Shown: positions 1,100-23,779, numbered from the stretch's first letter. The stretch is 38,357 nt of DNA from Clostridia bacterium (GCA_012840125.1 DULZ01000001.1:1-38357); one strand, 5' to 3'. Numbers and translations: made by a program. The notes: a model not told the origin generated them from the letters alone.

Positions 1100-2143
1100 T
1101 TATAAGTTTAACAGGAGAAAGGAAATATCATCCTGGGGTTTGCAGCTGTTGATCTTAGCCAGCAGGGAGAGGTGAAACTCTTCCTGGTCTGATAGGAGGA
1201 GCATTTCTTTCAGCTCTTGCTCATTGAGAATGTCAAACAGCCCGTCGCTGTACAGCAGCAGGGAATCCCCGGGCTGGTAAAAAGCAATGCCTTTTTCAAA
1301 GGTGATGCCGGTGCTGATGCCCAGGGGCATCCCCTGGCTGGGGAGCTGCCGGACGCGGCCCCGGGATTTGAGCAAGCAGGGAGGATGCCCGGCACCGGCA
1401 AAGCTGATCTTTTCCTCCTCGATTTTGGTGCAGATGGCCGTGACATAGTAAGCCGTGTCTTCATTGGCCAGCAAGCTGCACAGTTTCCGATTCAAGCGGT
1501 CCAGCAAAAGGGCCGGGTCCTGGCACTTCTTATCAATCAATGCTTTGACTGCCGTGGCAATTAAAGCGGCGGAAGGGCCGTGCCCCGCCGCATCGGCCAG
1601 CAAAGCCCAGCGGCTGTCTGGTTGTTCCCAGGTTTCAATCAGGTCACCGCCCACCGGGCGGCAGGGCCGGTAGAACAGCTTATCCTGGGGCTGCAGGTGG
1701 TTTTCCGCGAAAAACAGGTTTTCCTGTACTCGCCTGGCAAAAACCAGTTCATTGTACAAGTTGGCATGCAGTTCCCGGATTTTCAGCATGTTGCGCACTT
1801 TGATCATTAGTTCAATGGTGTCCACCGGTTTGGACAAAAAATCATCAGCCCCGGCCCGCAGCCCTTGCAGCTTGCTCTGCCGGTCATTTAAGGCCGTAAT
1901 CAGGATCACGGGCAGGAAAGGTTCCTGCCATTTCTTTTTCACATAGGAACAAAAACTAAACCCGTCTTCGCCGGGCATCATCACATCCAACAGGATTAAA
2001 TCCGGTTTTTCTTTGTAAATCAGCACCCTGGCTTCGCCGGCACTGGCCGCTTCCAGCACGGTGTATTTCTCCTTCGTTAAAAAGCCGACCAGCAGTTCCC
2101 TACTGAGACGGTCATCATCCACTACTAGGATTTTCTTCCCCAT
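1100..2143 (-). CDS. Response regulator with PP2C-type (RsbU/SpoIIE-like) phosphatase domain
   Basis: This 347-residue protein joins an N-terminal receiver domain to a C-terminal PPM/PP2C serine phosphatase. The receiver has the acidic pocket VDDD (about 8-11), phospho-acceptor Asp53 in LLDVMMPGEDG and the conserved Lys in FLSKPVD. A short helical linker leads to the phosphatase, which shows PVGGDL, LLADAAGHGPSAAL, AGAGHPP and LLLYSDGLFD, the usual metal-binding aspartates and glycine motifs. By family knowledge, such proteins dephosphorylate a STAS-domain anti-sigma antagonist when the receiver is phosphorylated. The candidate substrate is the STAS protein two genes upstream in the same operon. 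Its start overlaps the end of the RsbW-like gene by 29 bases, which suggests translational coupling. No partner histidine kinase lies in the window, so the input is unknown. Confidence 0.88.
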   Translation of the reverse strand: MGKKILVVDDDRLSRELLVGFLTKEKYTVLEAASAGEARVLIYKEKPDLILLDVMMPGEDGFSFCSYVKKKWQEPFLPVILITALNDRQSKLQGLRAGADDFLSKPVDTIELMIKVRNMLKIRELHANLYNELVFARRVQENLFFAENHLQPQDKLFYRPCRPVGGDLIETWEQPDSRWALLADAAGHGPSAALIATAVKALIDKKCQDPALLLDRLNRKLCSLLANEDTAYYVTAICTKIEEEKISFAGAGHPPCLLKSRGRVRQLPSQGMPLGISTGITFEKGIAFYQPGDSLLLYSDGLFDILNEQELKEMLLLSDQEEFHLSLLAKINSCKPQDDISFLLLNL

Positions 2144-2525
2144 TCATAACGCCCTTTCTAATCCAGACTCTCCCACTCCCGAATTTGCATCGATCGGCTA
2201 GCTCATTGAGGATGGACAGGCCCCGTCCCGATTCCGAGCAGGGAACGGTTTCCACGTCAGCGAGAATAGTTTGGCGTCCTTCGTCCGCTACGAAAATAAG
2301 CACCATGCTCCGGCTTGGCTTCCACCGCATGCTGAGATAGACTCTTTTATCCGGCTCCCAATTATTGCCGTGGGCGGCGGCGTTGGCCAGCAATTCACAG
2401 AGTATGAGGTCAAAATCGAAGTTCATGGAGGTAGGAATCCCCCACTCTTGCAGTACGGCCAATGCCAGGCTTCTGGCTTTTTGTAGCTCCGCTTTGCTGC
2501 TCTTGACGGTACAGTACCACTTCAT
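2115..2525 (-). CDS. RsbW/SpoIIAB-like anti-sigma serine kinase (HATPase)
   Basis: A 136-residue GHKL-type ATPase of the anti-sigma-factor kinase group. The N box is ELLANAAAHGNN, the G1 region VADEGR and the G2 region SGRGLSIL. Family members bind a sigma factor or another target and phosphorylate a STAS partner on serine. The STAS gene directly upstream overlaps it by four bases and the receiver-phosphatase gene follows, so the three make a complete partner-switching set. There is no sigma-factor gene alongside, so the kinase may hold a sigma factor encoded elsewhere or act on a non-sigma target such as the adjacent chemoreceptor. The ATG at 2523-2525 gives the typical family length. The C-terminal tail after about residue 125 is variable. 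Confidence 0.85.
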   Translation of the reverse strand: MKWYCTVKSSKAELQKARSLALAVLQEWGIPTSMNFDFDLILCELLANAAAHGNNWEPDKRVYLSMRWKPSRSMVLIFVADEGRQTILADVETVPCSESGRGLSILNELADRCKFGSGRVWIRKGVMNGEENPSSG

Positions 2526-2842
2526 TGCCGGTGCATCTGGTCCAAAGACGGCAGGATGGGCACAATTTGATTGATCCGGGTAATTTCAAAGACCCGGGCG
2601 ATTTTTGGTTGCGGAGCCACTATAATTAAATCTTTGCCGTTCAGCTTTTTCAGCAAGGAAATGATTACCCCGACACCGGAACTGTCGATCATTTCCAATG
2701 CGGACACATCCAAGATCACTTGTTCTTCGTCACCGCGGATTTGCTCTTTAATCTTCTCCTTGGTTTCCGTGGAATTGAAGAAAGTCAGCTCCCCTGACAG
2801 GAAGACATATAACTTGTTTTGCCGCCGTTCCACCTGCAGCAT
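2522..2842 (-). CDS. STAS-domain anti-sigma factor antagonist (RsbV/SpoIIAA-like)
   Basis: A 106-residue single STAS domain. The hallmark is DVSALEMIDSSGVGVI (about 45-60), where one of the paired serines at 54-55 is the expected phosphorylation site. In the known scheme the dephosphorylated form binds the RsbW-like kinase and frees its target. It lies between the chemoreceptor, 17 bases upstream, and the kinase gene, which overlaps it by four bases, so all four genes are probably one transcript. The ATG at 2840-2842 fits family length. Confidence 0.88.
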   Translation of the reverse strand: MLQVERRQNKLYVFLSGELTFFNSTETKEKIKEQIRGDEEQVILDVSALEMIDSSGVGVIISLLKKLNGKDLIIVAPQPKIARVFEITRINQIVPILPSLDQMHRQ

Positions 2843-2859
2843 ATGGTCACCCGCCTCAT

Positions 2860-4533
2860 TTAAACTTTAAAAATAGCTACCGCTTTGGCTAAATCCTCCG
2901 TCAAGAGCTTCAGTTTCTGCGCCAGGGCCGCCACCTCGTCCTGGGCCGCCGTTTGCTCCTCTGCCGAGGCGGCCACTTCTTCGGAGCCGGCGGCATTTTC
3001 CACAATGCTGTCCGTCATGGCTTCCACCAGGGATGCCAGTGCGGTACCGTTGTTTTCCAGCACACCGCTCATCTCCAGTAATCGTTCCGCCGCCGCGCGG
3101 GAATTGACGGCACTGTCCACCAGGGCATTGAGGGACTCTCCCGCCCTTTGGATGATGGCCATTTGCTTGGCAATTTCCTCACTGTTCACTTCCATGGAAT
3201 TAACGGTCACCGTCGTTTCTGATTGAATGTCCTCAATTAAGCTGGTGATTTTTTCCGCGGCCGCCGCGGATTCCACCGCCAGCTTGCGCACTTCTTCCGC
3301 CACTACCGCAAATCCCCGGCCTGATTCCCCGGCCCGGGCAGCTTCAATGGCGGCATTCAAAGCCAAGAGGTTGGTCTGGGAGGCGATGCCGTCAATGATT
3401 TCCACGATGGCGGCGATTTCCCCGGAACGCATACCCAATTTTTGGATGGCATCCGTGGCGAAATCCACCGTCTCCGTCACCGACGTTAACTGGGCGATGG
3501 CCGCATTGACCGCTTTGTTTCCTTGCTGGGCCATGTGCTCCGCTTGCTTGGCCTGGTCCAAGTTGTTCAGCGCCGTCTCCTTGAGCCCCAAGGCAATGGC
3601 TTTGACGCTGTCGGACTGTTCTTTCAGCTTATCGGCCTGCTTGGCCAACCGGTCCCCGCTTTCAGCGATGTTTTGAATGGTCATGGAAATCTGCTCCGCC
3701 GCCCGTTTCGTCTCATCCGCGTTGCCGGCCAAAAGCTCGCCGGCTTCGTTGGTATCTTTGGTGGTATGGGCGATATTGGCGATGAGCTGTTTCAGGTTGT
3801 GCAGCATGGTGGTGAAGGCATCCACCAGTTCTTTTACTTCCCCTTTGACCCGCAGGGCCGGTATCTGGACGGTCAGGTCTCCCTGGGCCGCCTGCTGGCT
3901 GATACCGGCCAGCAGTTTAATCGGGTTGGAGATGGCATTGGCCGTGACATGGGCCAGGAGATTGGCGATGGCCAGCGTGACCAGCAGCGCGGCCAGGATC
4001 AACATTTTTACCTGCAGGGCTTTTTCTTGCCCGGACAGCATGCTCTGTTCCGTTTCCTGCCCCACCAGTTCTCGCAGCTGCTCTAAGAGGCCTTTGAGTT
4101 CATTGAGGGCCGGGGATACCTGATGGAGGAAGATGTCCTGGGCCCCGGTGAAGTCCCCGGCTTCTGCCAGCTCCCAGACTTGATGGGCGTACCGGTGGAT
4201 GCGCTGGTGCGGGTCATTAATGGCCGTGTAGATCTCTTCCATGTGGGCCGGCGGGGAAAAGCCGTCGTACCACTTGCCGAAATCACAATCATGGGGCCCC
4301 CCCGGCTCCCGCGGCAAGATGTTGGTCAGGAACATGAAATAAAAATCCGTCATGAACTTATCGTGGGCGATTTCCGCCTCCAGCAGCTCTTTATGCAGCA
4401 AGGCCTGGGCGTTGACGTCCGCCGCTACACTGTTCATGAAATCGGTGCCCCAGTAGGCGATAATTCCCAAGATTAACATAAACGTAAATACTGTGCCAAA
4501 TCCGACTAATAAGCGCTTGCGAATCCAGGTCAT
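2860..4533 (-). CDS. Methyl-accepting chemotaxis protein with CZB-like zinc-binding sensor
   Basis: A 557-residue chemoreceptor with transmembrane segments near 8-28 and 177-195 around an external domain of about 145 residues. That domain shows a chemoreceptor-zinc-binding pattern: His57, then Cys83 in [11 protein letters not shown], then His109 and His113 in HQRIH. This matches the H / CxxGKW / HxxxH ligand set of CZB domains. A HAMP domain follows TM2, then a long signalling coiled coil whose hairpin tip includes [23 protein letters not shown] receptors are known to sense zinc or hypochlorous acid; here the domain would face outward (inference from topology). It is first in the operon with the STAS, RsbW-like and receiver-phosphatase genes. 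GGAAAGGGTGAG precedes the ATG. Confidence 0.88.
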
Positions 4534-4644: not shown

Positions 4645-4674
4645 ATAACCCCCGGGGGTATCCCCTGGGGTTAT
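4645..4674 (-). terminator. Terminator of the uracil-DNA glycosylase gene
   Basis: A 13-base arm (ATAACCCCCGGGG, 4645-4657) pairs with CCCCTGGGGTTAT (4662-4674). Read on the minus strand it is followed by TTTTGTTTTT, so it ends the glycosylase transcript and insulates it from the chemoreceptor operon. The remaining bases from 4534 to 4702 hold no gene that I can see. Confidence 0.8.
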
Positions 4675-6943: not shown

Positions 6944-7186
6944 ATGCGCATCAAATTGCATTTGATGGGAGCTCTAAAACACACAATGCAGGCCGGGGAC
7001 CGCTTTGACCCAAGTGGTTACCTGGAAGTCGATGCAGCGACGACCCCCCGAGATCTCATCCGGTCCTTGGGTGTGACCGGCGAAGATGTGCTGGTCTTGA
7101 TCAACGGTAAACCGGTGCCCCTGGATGAAAAGATAGCCCCTGATGACCGGGTAGTGCTCATGTATCCTGATTCCCATGAAACTTGA
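6944..7186 (+). CDS. MoaD/ThiS-like beta-grasp protein lacking the diglycine end
   Basis: An 80-residue protein resembling sulfur-carrier proteins of the MoaD/ThiS group: strand RIKLHLMGALK, a TTPRDLIRSLGV helix, VLVLINGKPV and IAPDDRVVLMYP. Genuine carriers end in Gly-Gly, which is adenylated and thiocarboxylated; this one ends PDSHET, so it cannot use that chemistry as encoded. It may be a structural or regulatory beta-grasp protein. No moeB, thiF, moaE or thiG partner lies nearby. A terminator follows within 20 bases, so it is not in the gerA transcript. Confidence 0.65.
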   Translation: MRIKLHLMGALKHTMQAGDRFDPSGYLEVDAATTPRDLIRSLGVTGEDVLVLINGKPVPLDEKIAPDDRVVLMYPDSHET

Positions 7187-7301: not shown

Positions 7302-8786
7302 GTGTTCCGGAGATTAATGGACAGGCTGAAAGGCGGCCAAATACGGGACCTGCCTCATCACGGACTTTACCATGACCTGGAAGTGAACCTCAGCGTTCTG
7401 CAGGATATATTCAACTTGTGCTTTGATGTGAAATACCGGCGGTTCAAACTGAACACGGAACCGGCCCGGGAGGCCTGCTTGATTTTCATCGAAAACCTGG
7501 TGGAAGTCAGGTCCCTGGAAGAGCACGTCATGGGCGCCCTAACTAAGCAGGTGGCCCCTTGTCATGCTGACTGGGATTTAATGAAAACCGTCTGCGATTC
7601 TTTGGTGGAGACCTTGGAGATCAGCCTTGAAGAAGAATTTGAACCGACGGTTAATGCTATTCTCAACGGCAGCGCCGTCCTGCTGGTGGACGGCGTGAAC
7701 CAGGCTGTCCGGATGAACGTCAAGCAGTTGGAGCGGCGCGCCATTAACGAATCCGATACGGAAACGGTCATTCGGGGTCCCAGGGACGCTTTCGTGGAAG
7801 TGCTGTCGGTGAATGTGACCCTGTTACGCCGCCGGCTGAGGACTCCTGCCCTGAAACTGGAGAAGCTGCGCATCGGTACCATGACCCGGACCGATGTGGT
7901 GGTTGCTTACCTGGATGGGGTGGCGGAGCCGAAAATAGTCGCCGAGGTGAAAAGCAGGCTGGCGAAAATTGACATTGACGGTGTCTTGGAAAGTGCCTAT
8001 ATCGAAGAATTCATGGAGGATGTGCCCTGGTCCCCTTTTCCGCAAATCGATTCCACCGAAAGGCCCGATAAAGTGGCCGCCGGGCTGCTGGAAGGGCAGG
8101 TGGCGGTTTTGGTAGACAATACACCTTTTGCCTTGCTGATGCCGGTGACCTTTTTCCGTTTTCTGTTCGCCTCGGAAGACTACTATTCCCGGGCCATTTA
8201 TGCCACTTTTACCAGGCTGGTGCGTTTTGTTGCTTTGAATATTGCTTTGATCCTGCCCGCTACTTATGTGTCCATCGTGACTTATCACCAGGAACTGCTG
8301 CCCACCAGCTTGCTATTGTCCATCGCCGCCGGCCGGGAACCGGTACCTTTTCCCGCCTTCCTTGAGGCTTTCTTGATGGAAACCACCTTTGAGATCTTGC
8401 GGGAAGCGGGTATCAGGCTGCCCCGCCCCGTGGGTCAAGCCACCAGTATTGTGGGCGCTCTGGTGATCGGTAACGCCGCCGTTTCCGCCGGCCTGGTGTC
8501 CCCGGCGATGGTAATCGTCGTTTCCTTAACGGCGCTGGCTTCTTTCATTATTCCTACCCCGTCGGGGGCTTTTGCCATCCGGCTTTTGCGGTTTCCCTTG
8601 ATGTTTTTTGCCGCTGCCCTGGGCTTCTTCGGGGTGATGGTGGCCCTGATGGCGATCCTGACCCACCTGTGCACCTTGCGCTCCTTTGGCGTGCCCTATC
8701 TCTCACTGCTTTCTCCCGTGCATATAAAAGGCTTAAAGGATTCCTTTGTGCGGGCGCCCTGGTGGATGATGGCGAAAAGAAGGTGA
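7302..8786 (+). CDS. gerAA: Spore germination protein, GerA family A subunit
   Basis: A 494-residue GerA-type A subunit, normal length for the family. The N-terminal half is soluble and includes LNGSAVLLVDGVNQA and the conserved PRDAFVEVLSVNVTLLRRRLRTP segment. The C-terminal half carries several transmembrane helices, including VRFVALNIALILPATYVSIV and the FPAFLEAFLMETTFEILREAG region. GerA receptors sit in the spore inner membrane and respond to amino acids or other germinants. It begins at GTG after AAAAAGGAGG and is the first of three genes in the usual A-B-C order, seven bases from the B subunit gene. The ligand cannot be read from sequence. Confidence 0.93.
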   Translation: MFRRLMDRLKGGQIRDLPHHGLYHDLEVNLSVLQDIFNLCFDVKYRRFKLNTEPAREACLIFIENLVEVRSLEEHVMGALTKQVAPCHADWDLMKTVCDSLVETLEISLEEEFEPTVNAILNGSAVLLVDGVNQAVRMNVKQLERRAINESDTETVIRGPRDAFVEVLSVNVTLLRRRLRTPALKLEKLRIGTMTRTDVVVAYLDGVAEPKIVAEVKSRLAKIDIDGVLESAYIEEFMEDVPWSPFPQIDSTERPDKVAAGLLEGQVAVLVDNTPFALLMPVTFFRFLFASEDYYSRAIYATFTRLVRFVALNIALILPATYVSIVTYHQELLPTSLLLSIAAGREPVPFPAFLEAFLMETTFEILREAGIRLPRPVGQATSIVGALVIGNAAVSAGLVSPAMVIVVSLTALASFIIPTPSGAFAIRLLRFPLMFFAAALGFFGVMVALMAILTHLCTLRSFGVPYLSLLSPVHIKGLKDSFVRAPWWMMAKRR

Positions 8787-8793
8787 TGCAGGA

Positions 8794-9906
8794 ATGAACG
8801 ATCACAATTACACGCAAATCTCCGGCGGGCAGCTGGTCCTGCTCCTCATTACCCTGGTGGGAGCGACGGCTATTCTTTACGCCCCTTCGATGTCTATTAG
8901 AATTGCGGGGCGGGATGCCTGGCTGTCAATTCTGGTCCCAGCCACTTTGTACGGGCTGCTGGTGGTCTGGGTTACCACTAGACTGGCCCTGGGCTTTGCC
9001 GGCCTCTCATTCCGGGAGTACACCGAGGCCCTGACCGGCAAATGGATGGCGCGGCTCATCAATTTCCTCTATTGCCTTTACGCGGTCACATTATTGATCG
9101 TGATCGTGCGGGAGTTCGGCAATGTCCTCAGTACCGCTTTCATGCCGGAGACGCCCATGCTGGTCTTTCACTTGTCCCTCCTGGTGCTGTGCATTTATGC
9201 CACCTGGGGCGGCATCGAAGTTATCTGCCGGGTGAATCAATTCCACCTACCCCTCTTGTTTTTTACCATTGCCTTCTTGTTCCTGTTTTTGGCCAAGGAT
9301 GTGAAATTGGACAGGCTGCTGCCCTTTATGGAAAACGGTTTTGTGCCTGTGCTTAAAGGGGCCATCGTCCCCTGCGCTTTCCGCGGTGAGGTTTTTGTGC
9401 TCCTGTGGCTGGTCTCCCACCTGAAGGAACCCTGGGACGGCCCCAGGCTGGGCACCCTAGCGGTGGCCATTCTCGGCATTCTCCTGGCCCTGGATACTTT
9501 CACCATTTTGACCGTTCTCGGCAAGGAACTGTCTTCCCGGGAAACCCTGGCCACCCTGTCGGTGGTGCGTTATATTAACATCGGTGATTTCCTGAACCGG
9601 ACGGAAGGATTGGCACTCATCATCTGGATCTGCAGTGTTGTGACGAAAGCCAGCGCTTTCTTCTACATCGCGGCGGAGTCAGCCAAAGCTGCTTTAGGCC
9701 TGCCGCGCAGCAACGGGTATCTCCTTGGCGGGCTGGGGCTCATCATCCTGGTGGCGGCTCTTTATATTTTTAAAAACGATCTCCAAGTCGTTTGGTTCCT
9801 GGAAAAACTGTTTCCGCCCCTTTCCTTGCTCTTCCAACTGATCATTCCCGGCGCGCTGCTGGGCCTGGCCTGGGTCAAGAAGAAAGGAGCCGGCTCCCGT
9901 GGTTAA
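8794..9906 (+). CDS. gerAB: Spore germination protein, GerB family transporter-like subunit
   Basis: A 370-residue integral membrane protein of the endospore-germination permease family (APC superfamily fold), with about ten hydrophobic segments from QLVLLLITLVGATAILY onward. In known receptors the B subunit binds the germinant. The C-terminus ends in a short basic stretch (WVKKKGAGSRG). The ATG follows a GGTGATGCAGGA region only seven bases after gerAA, and its 3' end overlaps gerAC by eight bases, which indicates tight translational coupling of the three subunits. Confidence 0.92.
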   Translation: MNDHNYTQISGGQLVLLLITLVGATAILYAPSMSIRIAGRDAWLSILVPATLYGLLVVWVTTRLALGFAGLSFREYTEALTGKWMARLINFLYCLYAVTLLIVIVREFGNVLSTAFMPETPMLVFHLSLLVLCIYATWGGIEVICRVNQFHLPLLFFTIAFLFLFLAKDVKLDRLLPFMENGFVPVLKGAIVPCAFRGEVFVLLWLVSHLKEPWDGPRLGTLAVAILGILLALDTFTILTVLGKELSSRETLATLSVVRYINIGDFLNRTEGLALIIWICSVVTKASAFFYIAAESAKAALGLPRSNGYLLGGLGLIILVAALYIFKNDLQVVWFLEKLFPPLSLLFQLIIPGALLGLAWVKKKGAGSRG

Positions 9907-11125
9907 AAAGTACGGTTTACTGTTCTTGCTACTGTGGTTTACCTTATGGGTGTCAGGCTGCTGGAGTAAAAAGGAAATCGAAAACCTAGCCATCGTTTCC
10001 GCCATCGGCGTTGATTTTGTGGAAATAGACGGGAAGCCCAAGTGGGAAGTGACCATGGAAATTTACCACCCGAAAGCCCTGGCTCCCACCGGCGGCGACG
10101 GCATCAGCAGGGGAGGCAGCGGGCAAAAACTCATCAGCTGGATTGTGACTTCCGTCGGCGATACCGTCGACGAAGCCATTAATCACATCAGCGCCCGCAC
10201 ACCCCGGGTGCTGTTTTTCGCCCACACCAGGGTCGTGATCGTTGGTAAGGAGGCGGTGGAGAATTATAACCTGGAAGAAGTCTTGTCCCTCTTTTTCAGC
10301 AGCCATGAAGCCCGTTTGCGGAACTGGGTCTTAATTGCCGACGGAACAGCCAAGGAAGTGCTGCTGACCGGGCCGGAAATGGAACCCACCCGGGCCGGTG
10401 AACTGGAGGAATTAATCCAGCAAACCAGGAAAAGGTTGTCCAAAGCGGAAGTCCTCAATTTCCGGGATGTGGGAGAGGCCATGGCCTTACCCGGCAAGGA
10501 TGTGATTACCGGCCGGGTAGAGGTCTTCAAAACTCCGGAGCCCCCTACCGCTATCTACCTTCCAGGGCAGGAGTCCGTGCGGCACACCATGAGACTGAGC
10601 GGCGGCGCCGTCTTTTCTAAGGGGGACTTTGCCGGCTGGTTCAGTGATCTGGAAACCCGGGGCTACTTGTTCCTGGTCGGCAAAGCGCGGATGACGATTG
10701 TGCCTATCCATCTAGCCAATGATGATACCTTTGACGGCAATGTCAGGATTATCAAGGCCAGCAGCAGGATCATCCCGGAGATCGCCGGGAGTGACCTTAA
10801 AATGAAAGTCATGATCCAGGCAGAAGGGCATTTGGAAGGCTTTTTCCCGGGCGATTTCGCCGTCACCTCCGGCTTCTTCGATGAGGTGGGCCGCAAAACG
10901 GCTCTGGAACTGAAAAAGGATATCCTGGCGGCCCTCAACAAGGCCAAGGAATACCGGGCGGATATTTTCGGCTTCGGGGAACAGGTTTACCGCCGGTACC
11001 CCAAGTACTGGCAGTTGGTGAAGGAGCAGTGGCGGGACTATTTCGCCAGCCTGCCGGTGGAGGTAGAGGTGAAAGTGACCATCCGCCGCACCGGCATTTT
11101 TGAAGAACCGGTGCCTTCCCGCTAG
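9899..11125 (+). CDS. gerAC: Spore germination lipoprotein, Ger(x)C family
   Basis: A 408-residue Ger(x)C protein. It opens with a lipoprotein signal, a hydrophobic run followed by the lipobox VSGC at about residues 18-21, so it should be lipid-anchored on the outer face of the spore inner membrane. The family motif ENLAIVSAIGVDF follows the anchor, and later blocks include RVLFFAHTRVVIVGKE and the GGAVFSKGDFAGW domain-2 opening. It starts at a GTG within the end of gerAB; AAGAAAGGAG lies just upstream. It completes the A-B-C receptor. No sign of truncation. Confidence 0.92.
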   Translation: MVKKYGLLFLLLWFTLWVSGCWSKKEIENLAIVSAIGVDFVEIDGKPKWEVTMEIYHPKALAPTGGDGISRGGSGQKLISWIVTSVGDTVDEAINHISARTPRVLFFAHTRVVIVGKEAVENYNLEEVLSLFFSSHEARLRNWVLIADGTAKEVLLTGPEMEPTRAGELEELIQQTRKRLSKAEVLNFRDVGEAMALPGKDVITGRVEVFKTPEPPTAIYLPGQESVRHTMRLSGGAVFSKGDFAGWFSDLETRGYLFLVGKARMTIVPIHLANDDTFDGNVRIIKASSRIIPEIAGSDLKMKVMIQAEGHLEGFFPGDFAVTSGFFDEVGRKTALELKKDILAALNKAKEYRADIFGFGEQVYRRYPKYWQLVKEQWRDYFASLPVEVEVKVTIRRTGIFEEPVPSR

Positions 11126-11710: not shown

Positions 11711-11775
11711 CTGATGATAGGTTGTCTGACAATGCGCTCGTGGTAAACAAGAAACCCAGGGGGAGGGAGAGTGCC

Positions 11776-14454
11776 ATGGTTAATTTGACCATCGACGGGC
11801 ATCCTGTGTCAGTTCCCGAAGGTACGACCGTGCTGGAGGCGGCCCGGGAAATCGGCATTGATATACCGAACCTGTGCTATGACAAGCATCTTACCCCAGC
11901 AGGTGCCTGCCGGATGTGTGTTGTTTCCATTGAGGGGTTTCGCAACCTGGCCACGGCCTGTACGACGGTAGTGTCCGAAGGCATGGTGGTGCAAACCGAG
12001 ACCCCGGAAGTCGTTGAAGCCAGGAAGATGATTCTCGATTTAATCCTGGCTAATCACCCGCAGGATTGTCTGACTTGTGAAAAAACAGGGAATTGCCAGT
12101 TACAAGACTTGTGTTATCGCTACGGTGTGAAAACCACCACCTTTGCCGGTGAGCGCCGGAATGTGCCGAAAGACACCGGCAATCACCTCATCGAACGGGA
12201 TTACAATAAATGTATCCTCTGCGGTAAATGTGTCCGGGTCTGCGCCGAAGTCCAAGGCACCAATGCCGTGGATTTCGTGGGCCGGGGTTTCCAGACCGTG
12301 GTGGATACCGCTTTCCGGGAGCATCTCAACCTGGAGAACTGCCGTTTCTGCGGCCAGTGCGTGGAAATGTGCCCCACCGGAGCTTTGATCAACAAGCAGT
12401 TCAAGGGTACCAGGCCCTGGCAAATCACCAAGAAAGTCAGGACCACTTGTCCTTTCTGCGGCACGGGCTGCAATTTTGATCTGAACGTCAAAGACGGCAA
12501 GATCATCGGCGTCACCACCGGTAACCCGGACGGGGTGGTCAACGGGCGAGCCCTCTGCGTGAAAGGGCGCTTCCACACCGACATGATCTACAGCCCGGAA
12601 AGGATTACCACGCCTTTAATCAAGAAAAACGGGGAATTCGTCCCGGCCACCTGGGATGAAGCTTTGGATCTGGTCGCTTCCAAGTTCAAGGAGATCAAGG
12701 AGCAGTACGGCAGCGATGCCATCGCGGCTTTGAGTTCCGCGCGCTGCACCAATGAAGACAACTATGTCATGCAGAAATTCGTGCGGGCGGTGATCGGCAC
12801 CAACAACGTCGACCACTGCGCCCGGACGTGACACGCGCCTACCGTAGCCGGTCTGGCTACTGTATTTGGCAGCGGTGCAATGACCAACTCTATTGGTGAA
12901 ATTGAGTTTAACGATTGCCTTTTCGTCATCGGTTCCAACGCCCCTGAAGCCCATCCGGTGATCGGGAGCAAGATGAAGAGAGCCAAGAGAAGGGGAGCCA
13001 AGCTCATCGTCGCCGATCCCAGGAAGACGGAACTGGCGGAAATGGCCGACGTATGGCTGCGGCTGATTCCCGGTACCGATGCGGCTTTGATCAACGGGAT
13101 GATTCACATTATCATCACCGAGGGCTGGGAAGACCGGGAGTTCATTGAAACCCGGTGCGAGGGCTTTGATGACATGTGGAAAGTAGTGCAAAACTACCCG
13201 CCCAGCCGGGCCGCCGAGATCACCGGTGTTCCCGAAGAACTGATCTACCGGGCGGCGGAGCTTTACGCCAAGACCAAGCATGCCGGTATTTACTACACTT
13301 TAGGTATCACCGAGCATACCACCGGTACCGCCAACGTGATGAACCTGGCCAACCTGGCCATGGTCACCGGCCATGTGGGCCTCGAAAGGGCCGGGGTCAA
13401 CCCGTTGAGAGGCCAGAACAACGTACAAGGGGCCTGCGACATGGGTGCCCTGCCCAACGTTTTCCCAGGCTACCAAGCCGTCAGCAACCCGCAGGTGATT
13501 GAGAAATTCGAGAAAGCCTGGGGTGTAACCCTGAACCGGCAAATGGGTCTCCGCATTCCGGAGATGATTGATATGGCGTTGTACGGCCAGGTGAAAGCCA
13601 TGTACATCATGGGTGAAGACCCGGTTCTCACGGACCCTGACGCCAACCATGTCCGGAAAGCCTTGGAGAAGCTGGATTTCATGGTGGTGCAGGATCTGTT
13701 CCTCACCGAGACGGCCAAGTATGCCGATGTATTCCTCCCGGCGGCCTGTTATGCCGAGAAGGAAGGCACTTTTACCAACACGGAGCGCCGGGTGCAGAGA
13801 GTGAGAAAAGCCGTGGAACCCCCCGGCCAGTGCCGCCAGGATTGGGAGATCATCTGCGACCTGTCCCGCCGCATGGGTTATGACATGGACTACTGCTGCA
13901 GTGAGCAGATTTTCAATGAAATGAGGAGCTTAACACCGAGTTATGCCGGCATCACCTACGCCAGGATTGACAAGGTGGGCATCCAGTGGCCCTGCCCGTC
14001 GGAAGACCATCCCGGCACCAAGTTCCTGCACCAGGGCACTTTCCCCAGAGGAAAAGGTCTCCTGCAGGGCATAGAGTATGAAGCACCGGCGGAATTGACC
14101 AATGAAGAATACCCGATGCTCATGACCACCGGCCGGATGCTGTATCACTATAACGTGACCACCAGGCGTTCCGCCAACCTGGACCGGCTGCGTCCCCATG
14201 AGCTGGCCCAGTTGAATCCGGTGGATGCGGCGAAAATCGGCGTGCAAGAGGGAGATGAGATCCGCGTCAGTTCCCGCCGCGGTTCCATCACCACCAAAGT
14301 CACTCTTACGGAAAAAGTACCGCCCGGCATTATGTTCATGACGTTCCACTACTGGGAGTCCCCGGTCAATGAGTTGACCAACTCCGCTTATGACCCGATT
14401 AGTAAGACGGCGGAGTACAAGGTGTCGGCGGTGCGCATCGAGAAAGTGTCATAA
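11776..14454 (+). CDS. fdhA: Formate dehydrogenase catalytic subunit, selenocysteine-containing
   Basis: One 892-residue protein read through an in-frame TGA (12829-12831) as selenocysteine at residue 352, in the context HCART-Sec-HAPTV typical of formate dehydrogenases. The N-terminal part is NuoG/HydA-like: [2Fe-2S] Cys34/45/48/62, a His94/Cys98/101/107 cluster and two ferredoxin-type clusters (146-156 and 189-199). The Mo/W-bis-pyranopterin domain follows with its own cluster at Cys225/228/232/261 and a C-terminal dinucleotide-binding domain. It interconverts formate and CO2; with this architecture it is a soluble NAD(P)- or ferredoxin-linked type like the Moorella enzyme. No diaphorase partner gene lies alongside. 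ATG 11776 has GGGAGGGAG upstream; the frame is open earlier but without support. Confidence 0.93.
12829..12862 (+). promoter_or_regulatory. Bacterial SECIS element of the formate dehydrogenase gene
   Basis: Directly after the TGA, GTAGCC (12844-12849) and GGCTAC (12855-12860) form a perfect six-base stem around the loop GGTCT. The GGUCU apical loop and its distance from the UGA closely match the E. coli fdhF element recognised by SelB. Confidence 0.85.
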
Positions 14455-22543: not shown

Positions 22544-23779
22544 ATGACAGGACAAGGGAAACAACAGGAAGTACAAACCGGTTTTGATGATCAACAGGTA
22601 TTTAATGAGTTAATGGTGGCTCTGTCCATGGCCCTGGATATGGATGCCAGGGGTAAACTCTTCCATGCCTGGCGGGTAGCGCTGGTGGCCGGGCGCACGG
22701 CGGCGGAGATCTTGCCGGATAAGGTGAGCGATGTCTTTTATGCGGGCCTGCTCCATGATATTGGTGCCATGGGCTTGGACGACCATATCGTGCACCAGAT
22801 GATCAGCGGTGCTCCTGCCACCGATCCGGTTATCCTGCAGCATTCGGAAAAAGGTGCCGCTATTGTACGGGAACTGCCGGCCTTACACGAGGCTTCCCGT
22901 TACATCCTGGAACACCACGAACACTGGGACGGCACCGGTACCCCCTCCCATAAGCGCCATCATCAGCTCACGGTCGGTGGGCAGATCGTGGCCGTTGCCG
23001 ACCAACTGGATATCCTGCTCCGTTTACACGCCAGGGACGAAGGCAAAAAGGCCCTGGAGATTATCAAGAGCCGGGCCGGGACCGTTTTCATGCCGGAGGT
23101 GGTGGAGGCCTTCCTGGCGGCGGTGGCTGAAACCCCTTATTACCAAGTCATTCAAGACTACGACAACCTGCCTTTCCTGATGGAAGAAACCCTGGCCGCC
23201 CTGCCGGCGGTGGACTGCCGCCATCCCCAGCCCTTGAGGGCTACGGTCAGGATCTTTGCCAAGATTATTGATGCCAAGCACAGGTATACCATGGGCCATT
23301 CCCAGCGGGTGGCGTCCTATGCCTTGAAGCTGGCCCAAGCCGTCGGTTATGGGGAGCCGGAACTGGCGGACCTGGAGATTGCGGGCCTCTTGCATGATTT
23401 CGGCAAGATCTCCGTGCCTAACCGGATTTTGGATAAAAACGGTCCCCTGGATAAGCATGAATGGACCATCGTCCGCAAGCATCCGGCCCGGACGGCGGAA
23501 TTGCTGACTATCATTAAAGGGTTGAAGCACCTGGCCTGGGTGGCGGCCGGCCATCATGAACGGTACGACGGGAAAGGATACCCTTAAGGGCTGGGGGGCG
23601 AGGAGATTCCCCACGGGGCCCGTGTATTGGCTGTGGCAGATGCTTTTGATGCCATGACTTCCCACCGGTCTTACCAGCGGAACCGGACTTTTCGGGAGGC
23701 AGGGGAGGAGATCCTCAAAGGGGCCGGGACCCAATTCGACCCGGAACTGGCTAAAGCGGCCGTTGTGCTTTGGGAATAA
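22544..23779 (+). pseudogene. HD / HD-GYP domain protein interrupted by an ochre codon
   Basis: The frame encodes 411 codons but holds an in-frame TAA at 23585-23587 (codon 348). The first HD-type domain has HAWRVALVAG and YAGLLHDIGAMG, then LEHHEHWDG. The second is an HD-GYP domain: GHSQRVASYALKLA, LLHDFGKISVPNRIL, HHERYDGKGYP, then after the TAA it continues in the same frame with GARVLAVADAFDAMTSHRSY to a TAA at 23777. The stop thus falls directly after the GYP motif. HD-GYP domains usually degrade cyclic di-GMP. A truncated protein would lose the last helices. It could be a true nonsense mutation or a sequence error. Confidence 0.8.

Follow-up and report, generated by a model that had tools for sequence, protein, structure and literature searches.

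A zinc-type chemoreceptor linked to a STAS/RsbW/PP2C partner-switching cassette in anaerobic Bacillota

Several described signalling systems share parts of their design with the locus reported here. In the Che1-CrsR/CrsA system of Shewanella oneidensis, an RpoS switch, chemoreceptors are encoded together with a STAS and an anti-sigma-domain protein, and chemosensory input to the partner switch has been proposed (PMC9855816). The HsbR-HsbA system of Pseudomonas aeruginosa (with HsbD/FlgM) is a STAS switch that depends on phosphorylation and involves a response-regulator partner, receives its input through the HptB pathway and has a diguanylate cyclase and motility as its output (PMC6482189, PMC5085249), while SiaABCD of Pseudomonas comprises a PP2C phosphatase, a kinase and a STAS-like target and is linked to a diguanylate cyclase (PMC7647112). 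The RsfSR-RsfB-SigF pathway of Mycobacterium smegmatis, which responds to respiratory state, runs from a sensor histidine kinase over a REC-PP2C phosphatase to a dephosphorylated STAS-type antagonist, and phosphorylation of RsfSR lowers its phosphatase activity (PMC10950880). On the sensory side, membrane chemoreceptors with an N-terminal outer CZB domain have been described as periplasmic CZB chemoreceptors, by sequence only and, in the available portions of that survey, with no mention of a link to partner switching (PMC8262984).

We analyzed a stretch of 38,357 nucleotides from a Clostridia bacterium (GCA_012840125.1 DULZ01000001.1:1-38357; hereafter the window) in which a CZB chemoreceptor is encoded together with a STAS protein, an RsbW-type kinase and a REC-PP2C phosphatase. 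Unlike Che1, which has its own CheA, CheY, CheW, CheR, CheD and CheB, this module has neither a local CheA nor a local CheW; it also differs from Che1-CrsR/CrsA in having a kinase distinct from the phosphatase protein, a receptor of the CZB type and no linked RpoS-like target. Closer to Che1 with respect to CheA are other Bacillota clusters (L027 and L120), which carry CheA with MCP, STAS, kinase and PP2C genes. The window module further differs from HsbR-HsbA by its linked receptor and by an output that we can only infer, from SiaABCD in that the target site of SiaC is a threonine (T68) and no MCP belongs to that set, and from RsfSR-RsfB-SigF in that the latter has a CHASE3 sensor, SigF as its output and no chemoreceptor. 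Within the parts available to us, the literature on chemoreceptor-linked or PP2C/STAS partner switches held no description of this cassette. The connection of a receptor to a partner switch, which a preliminary description of this DNA had presented as unusual, is real, but chemoreceptor-tied switches are already known from Shewanella Che1 (PMC9855816), and the module looks like a rewired version of such chemoreceptor-linked switches.

The four genes occupy the minus strand from 4533 to 1100 in the order receptor, STAS, kinase and REC-PP2C, just where the preliminary description had placed them, and all four products have Pfam matches (Table 1). Their spacing is as tight as had been claimed, with a 17-bp gap between receptor and STAS genes, a shared 4 bp (an ATGA overlap) between STAS and kinase genes, and an overlap of 29 bp between kinase and PP2C genes. 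Between an upstream uracil-DNA-glycosylase gene and the receptor lies a terminator-like hairpin (z against shuffles only -1.5) that would set the four genes apart as a unit of their own. No sigma factor, cheA or cheW gene was found within the four-gene locus, as had been noted, but this does not extend to the genome as a whole, which has a single CheA/CheW pair on contig C44.

Table 1. Features of the receptor/partner-switch locus in the window.
Feature	Position	Strand	Basis
CZB-HAMP-MCP receptor, 557 aa	2860..4533	-	Pfam, hydropathy, AlphaFold model
STAS (anti-anti-sigma type) protein, 106 aa	2522..2842	-	Pfam, alignment
RsbW/SpoIIAB-type serine kinase, 136 aa	2115..2525	-	Pfam, alignment, tree
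REC-PP2C phosphatase, 347 aa	1100..2143	-	Pfam, motifs
Terminator-like hairpin with U-rich tract	4645..4674	-	RNA fold vs shuffles

Elsewhere in the window, the plus strand encodes repeated DGYxxGxxDGY-like units with a weak Yae1_N match below cut-off (22-627), a small ubiquitin-like protein matching SAMP2 (6944-7186), and the spore germination genes GerA, spore permease and GerAC (7302-11125). A formate-dehydrogenase-like molybdopterin oxidoreductase (11722-14454, +) contains an in-frame TGA at 12829 whose context, CART-U-HAPTVAG, fits selenocysteine; its two halves appear as separate ORFs. A tandem HD-domain protein (22544-23587, +) shares 27 percent identity across 337 residues with the tandem HD-GYP protein encoded beside the module of Halanaerobium (see below) and ends earlier than the latter.

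The receptor has the TM-LBD-TM-HAMP-signalling domain architecture of a methyl-accepting chemotaxis protein, with Pfam matches to CZB (PF13682, above cut-off, E 7.8e-11, residues 57-119), HAMP (residues 197-249) and MCPsignal. Hydropathy places TM1 at residues 8-26 and TM2 at 178-196, and the CZB domain, lying between them, is therefore predicted to be extracytoplasmic, in agreement with the earlier assignment. The sensor is a four-helix CZB domain with a 3His/1Cys site whose ligands H57, C83, H109 and H113 are present at the residues previously named and, together with G86, W88 and Y89, are invariant among six aligned receptors; an alignment with seven rows gave the same invariant positions. 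An AlphaFold model of the sensor (pLDDT 87) has the CZB domain of DgcZ (3T9O) as its best PDB match in Foldseek, a moderate match (probability 1.00, E 2.2e-3, TM 0.60/0.75), and the same domain was found by searching the PDB with a sensor-domain profile (E 6.6e-7). The 14-residue MCP tip is canonical for contact with CheA and CheW, so the receptor could couple to the genome's CheA/CheW pair, and the C-terminal arm of the signalling domain extends 154 residues beyond the tip, which we take to indicate the long class that is usual in Bacillota. The outer position of the CZB domain does set it apart from the common cytosolic placement, as had been pointed out, but extracytoplasmic CZBs are a known minority class that, in a published survey, numbers 384 sequences or about 3.9 percent of the CZBs covered (PMC8262984). 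In a preprint on Salmonella McpA (July 2026), CZB domains are proposed to read redox via soluble zinc; by analogy, an outer CZB would sense conditions outside the cell directly, and the putative input of the receptor would be zinc or redox. In one genome with the module (G001), a second, near-identical receptor start lies at the end of another contig (L129:7156-7406), preceded, like the receptor of the window, by a uracil-DNA-glycosylase-like gene, and is either a strain variant or a paralogue.

The partner-switching proteins appear complete, as the preliminary description had put it, with all parts present and catalytic and acidic motifs intact. The STAS protein (Pfam STAS, E 1e-20) has its predicted phospho-acceptor in S54, which follows immediately on the Asp of a DSSG motif; this serine is invariant in ten aligned STAS proteins and equivalent to S58 of SpoIIAA. 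The kinase (HATPase_c_2, E 4e-13) has invariant positions at E44, N48, D81-G83 and the GRG box (100-102) and is, next to SpoIIAB, one of two strong stand-alone RsbW-type kinases in the genome. Module kinases split from SpoIIAB in a tree with branch support of 100/97, and on this basis we reject the kinase as a SpoIIAB paralogue, with long branches flagged by the program and the kinase of genome G029 closest to SpoIIAB. In the phosphatase (Response_reg, E 5e-28; SpoIIE/PP2C, E 1.5e-27), the acidic residues of the receiver (D9, D10 and D53) are present, as are the RsbU-type acidic motifs VGGD (164-167), ADAAGHG (183-189), SDGL (299-302) and DDI (338-340). Judged by their sequences, STAS protein, kinase and phosphatase thus qualify as a partner-switching module.

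Relatives were sought from kinase profile matches and the neighborhoods of these. The four-gene order proved not to be unique to the window's genome, so that the refutation named in the preliminary description for that case does not apply: It is intact in four others, i.e., G001 (named MAG JAAYOX010000439.1), G077 (DUOV01000006.1), G107 (JAAYHC010000026.1) and G195, and would count for a fifth, G074, where the receptor is cut by a contig end. A scan of genome contigs with a narrower kinase profile (A2) gave four loci, of which three are the named versions of G001, G077 and G107 and the fourth is actinobacterial. The module is complete but rearranged in Halanaerobium, where H. praevalens (G226) and a further Halanaerobium genome (G362) encode an HD-GYP protein, two STAS proteins, PP2C, kinase and MCP on one strand. 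As an independent test of linkage, a sensor-only search of the Halanaerobium family found the receptor in four new genomes (G403-G406; in G403 it is read as two frames), and STAS, kinase and PP2C genes adjoin it in all four. More partial versions are MCP-STAS-kinase with a 4HB sensor and no PP2C (G029), MCP-STAS-REC-PP2C with a STAS-kinase pair elsewhere (G274), and the receptor type without the module (G047). Most looser relatives of the sensor have no STAS, kinase or PP2C neighbors, with the exceptions of L113, where an MCP adjoins a PP2C-kinase fusion, and L120, with CheA, CheR, CheD, MCP, STAS and a PP2C-kinase fusion; in L027, a non-CZB MCP is surrounded by CheA and CheW together with STAS, kinase and REC-PAS-PP2C. 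Overall, the linkage of receptor and partner switch spans at least six families of anaerobic Bacillota and two gene orders, and on this comparative evidence we regard the four genes as a conserved signalling cassette and not a chance cluster. We additionally observed a Che cluster (L114:404-8218) composed of an Hpt-to-STAS protein, an overlapping RsbW-type kinase, CheB-like, CheD-like and CheR-like proteins and a CZB-type MCP, possibly a CheA-integrated relative of the module.

The Halanaerobium phosphatases have no REC domain: That of G362 has PAS domains, and those of G226 and G403-G405 (L080:8560-9930, L181:6196-7548, L183:3253-4599 and L184:9606-10964) combine a single TM with a coiled coil and a C-terminal region of ~130 aa that matched no Pfam family above cut-off. 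Part of the module is duplicated in G404, where one PP2C gene is surrounded by two kinase and two STAS genes (L183:2298-7177).

A second CZB-like sensor belongs to a hybrid histidine kinase. Directly upstream of the receptor, G077 encodes such a kinase (GAF-PAS-HisKA-HATPase-REC-REC) and a REC protein, and G107 and G195 encode a histidine kinase, REC-HD-GYP and REC; in G195, the kinase and its RECs are spread over two frames. The window's genome has the kinase-REC pair on contig C22 (L032:5846-9329), unlinked from the module and preceded by a REC-GGDEF gene (L032:4541-5821). CZB was not recognized by Pfam in the outer domain of these kinases. The cysteine and two of the histidines are kept in all four genomes, with the first histidine absent from its column of the alignment in G107 and G195; hhalign matched the sensor profile to that of the receptor CZB (probability 96, E 6e-9), and the best PDB match of the sensor model in Foldseek is again the DgcZ CZB, at a moderate E of 4e-2. 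On the strength of profile comparison, C/H/H conservation and fold, we call this sensor CZB-like and homologous to the receptor CZB. Among 398 genomes, the N-terminal profile of the kinase gave full-length matches in the same four, a weaker one in G186 and partial ones in G112 and G048; built from these four genomes, it attests to rarity elsewhere and not to independent discovery. By this profile no kinase was detectable in the fragmented genome of G001.

RsbW-type kinases usually bind SigB/F/G-type sigma factors. Among sigma-70 matches in the window's genome, we assigned SigA, FliA, E, F, H, K, I and four ECFs with an apparent anti-sigma neighbor; there is also a further SigG-like match on contig C30 and one SigB/F/G-like sigma factor in a type IV pilus operon (PilQ-PilC-sigma-PilM) on contig C15, between PilC and PilM (L042:3029-3742), where the names SigA, H, K, G and ECF are our reading of sequence and context. 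That the module kinase might be the anti-sigma factor of this C15 protein in trans, with the receptor controlling pili transcriptionally, seems doubtful to us but deserves some weight, because the C15 protein is, by elimination, the sole SigB/F/G-like sigma factor of this genome without an adjacent anti-sigma factor and the module kinase is one of only two candidates of its kind. Its orthologues (80 percent in G001, 70 percent in G002) are, however, confined to the window's family, with none in the module genomes searched outside it, and G002 (81 percent complete) has such a sigma factor with no module detected. In H. praevalens, where the module kinase is the sole match of the module-kinase profile, no SigB/F/G-type sigma factor was found, and, to judge from sequence and context, the sigma factors recovered there resemble the FliA and RpoD types. 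For the genomes searched, we therefore reject a dedicated sigma factor conserved with the module, in line with the lack of one noted initially at the locus, and the non-standard output proposed at that stage is likely. In family f26 and in Halanaerobium, the module contains or adjoins HD-GYP and/or REC-GGDEF genes, and in the window's genome a REC-GGDEF gene adjoins the C22 kinase; this association is one of adjacency, and genes of these kinds are widespread in Bacillota, which counts against it. Control of diguanylate cyclases by STAS proteins is on record (PMC6482189, PMC5085249, PMC7647112). From the lack of a tracking sigma factor, this adjacency and the analogy to HsbA-HsbD and SiaC-SiaD, we favor c-di-GMP or motility as the output, with roughly one chance in three that it would be c-di-GMP itself.

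We give even credence to a model in which the module is a zinc- or redox-responsive partner switch that is fed by receptor and histidine kinase and has such a non-sigma output, with input and output both inferred. The outer 3His/1Cys site would lose or gain zinc as zinc availability or redox changes, and in this lineage the phosphorylation of REC would be set by a phosphodonor, either the C22 hybrid kinase or, docked to the receptor, the one CheA of the genome. The phosphorylation state of REC may then determine PP2C activity; the kinase would put phosphate on S54 of the STAS protein and PP2C would take it off, so that the STAS protein would either hold the kinase or be free for another partner. 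The final target would most likely be lifestyle-linked (c-di-GMP turnover and/or motility), and the receptor may also steer swimming directly via CheA. The REC-less phosphatases of Halanaerobium rule out that a route from histidine kinase or CheA to REC is universal. Alternatively, the partner switch could take its signal straight from the receptor, or pass one to the receptor array, with neither CheA nor REC involved, e.g., by binding of STAS protein or kinase to the cytoplasmic domain of the MCP. The CZB receptor is the only recognized outer sensor of the Halanaerobium operon, no sensor being recognized in these phosphatases outside G362 (PAS), and MCP and STAS genes adjoin in most members. 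Against this stand the lack of any direct sign of a binding site, the canonical CheA/CheW tip, and, in the window's lineage, a REC that keeps its acidic residues along with a histidine kinase of the same sensor type; we consider such direct action unlikely, and equally so its specific form in which the receptor is itself part of the switch and its cytoplasmic domain exchanges STAS protein, kinase or phosphatase upon outer zinc or redox changes with no CheA step, a form that we consider mainly because the Halanaerobium phosphatases have no REC and mostly no sensor. An ordinary chemoreceptor that lies beside an unrelated partner-switching operon by accident could be imagined in a genome with about 13 MCP genes, given a receptor that keeps its CheA/CheW tip and has many looser relatives without these neighbors, but linkage in at least six families and two gene orders, mostly with a sensor of one and the same type and with tight spacing, largely refutes chance adjacency and makes this very improbable.

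Through this module, the outer-facing CZB receptors, so far little studied, are connected with a concrete pathway downstream, and Halanaerobium praevalens offers a cultured host with a published complete genome for a chemoreceptor/serine-phosphorylation switch that lacks a linked sigma factor. Should the output indeed be c-di-GMP, the principle of HsbA and SiaC would extend from Pseudomonas to anaerobic Bacillota.
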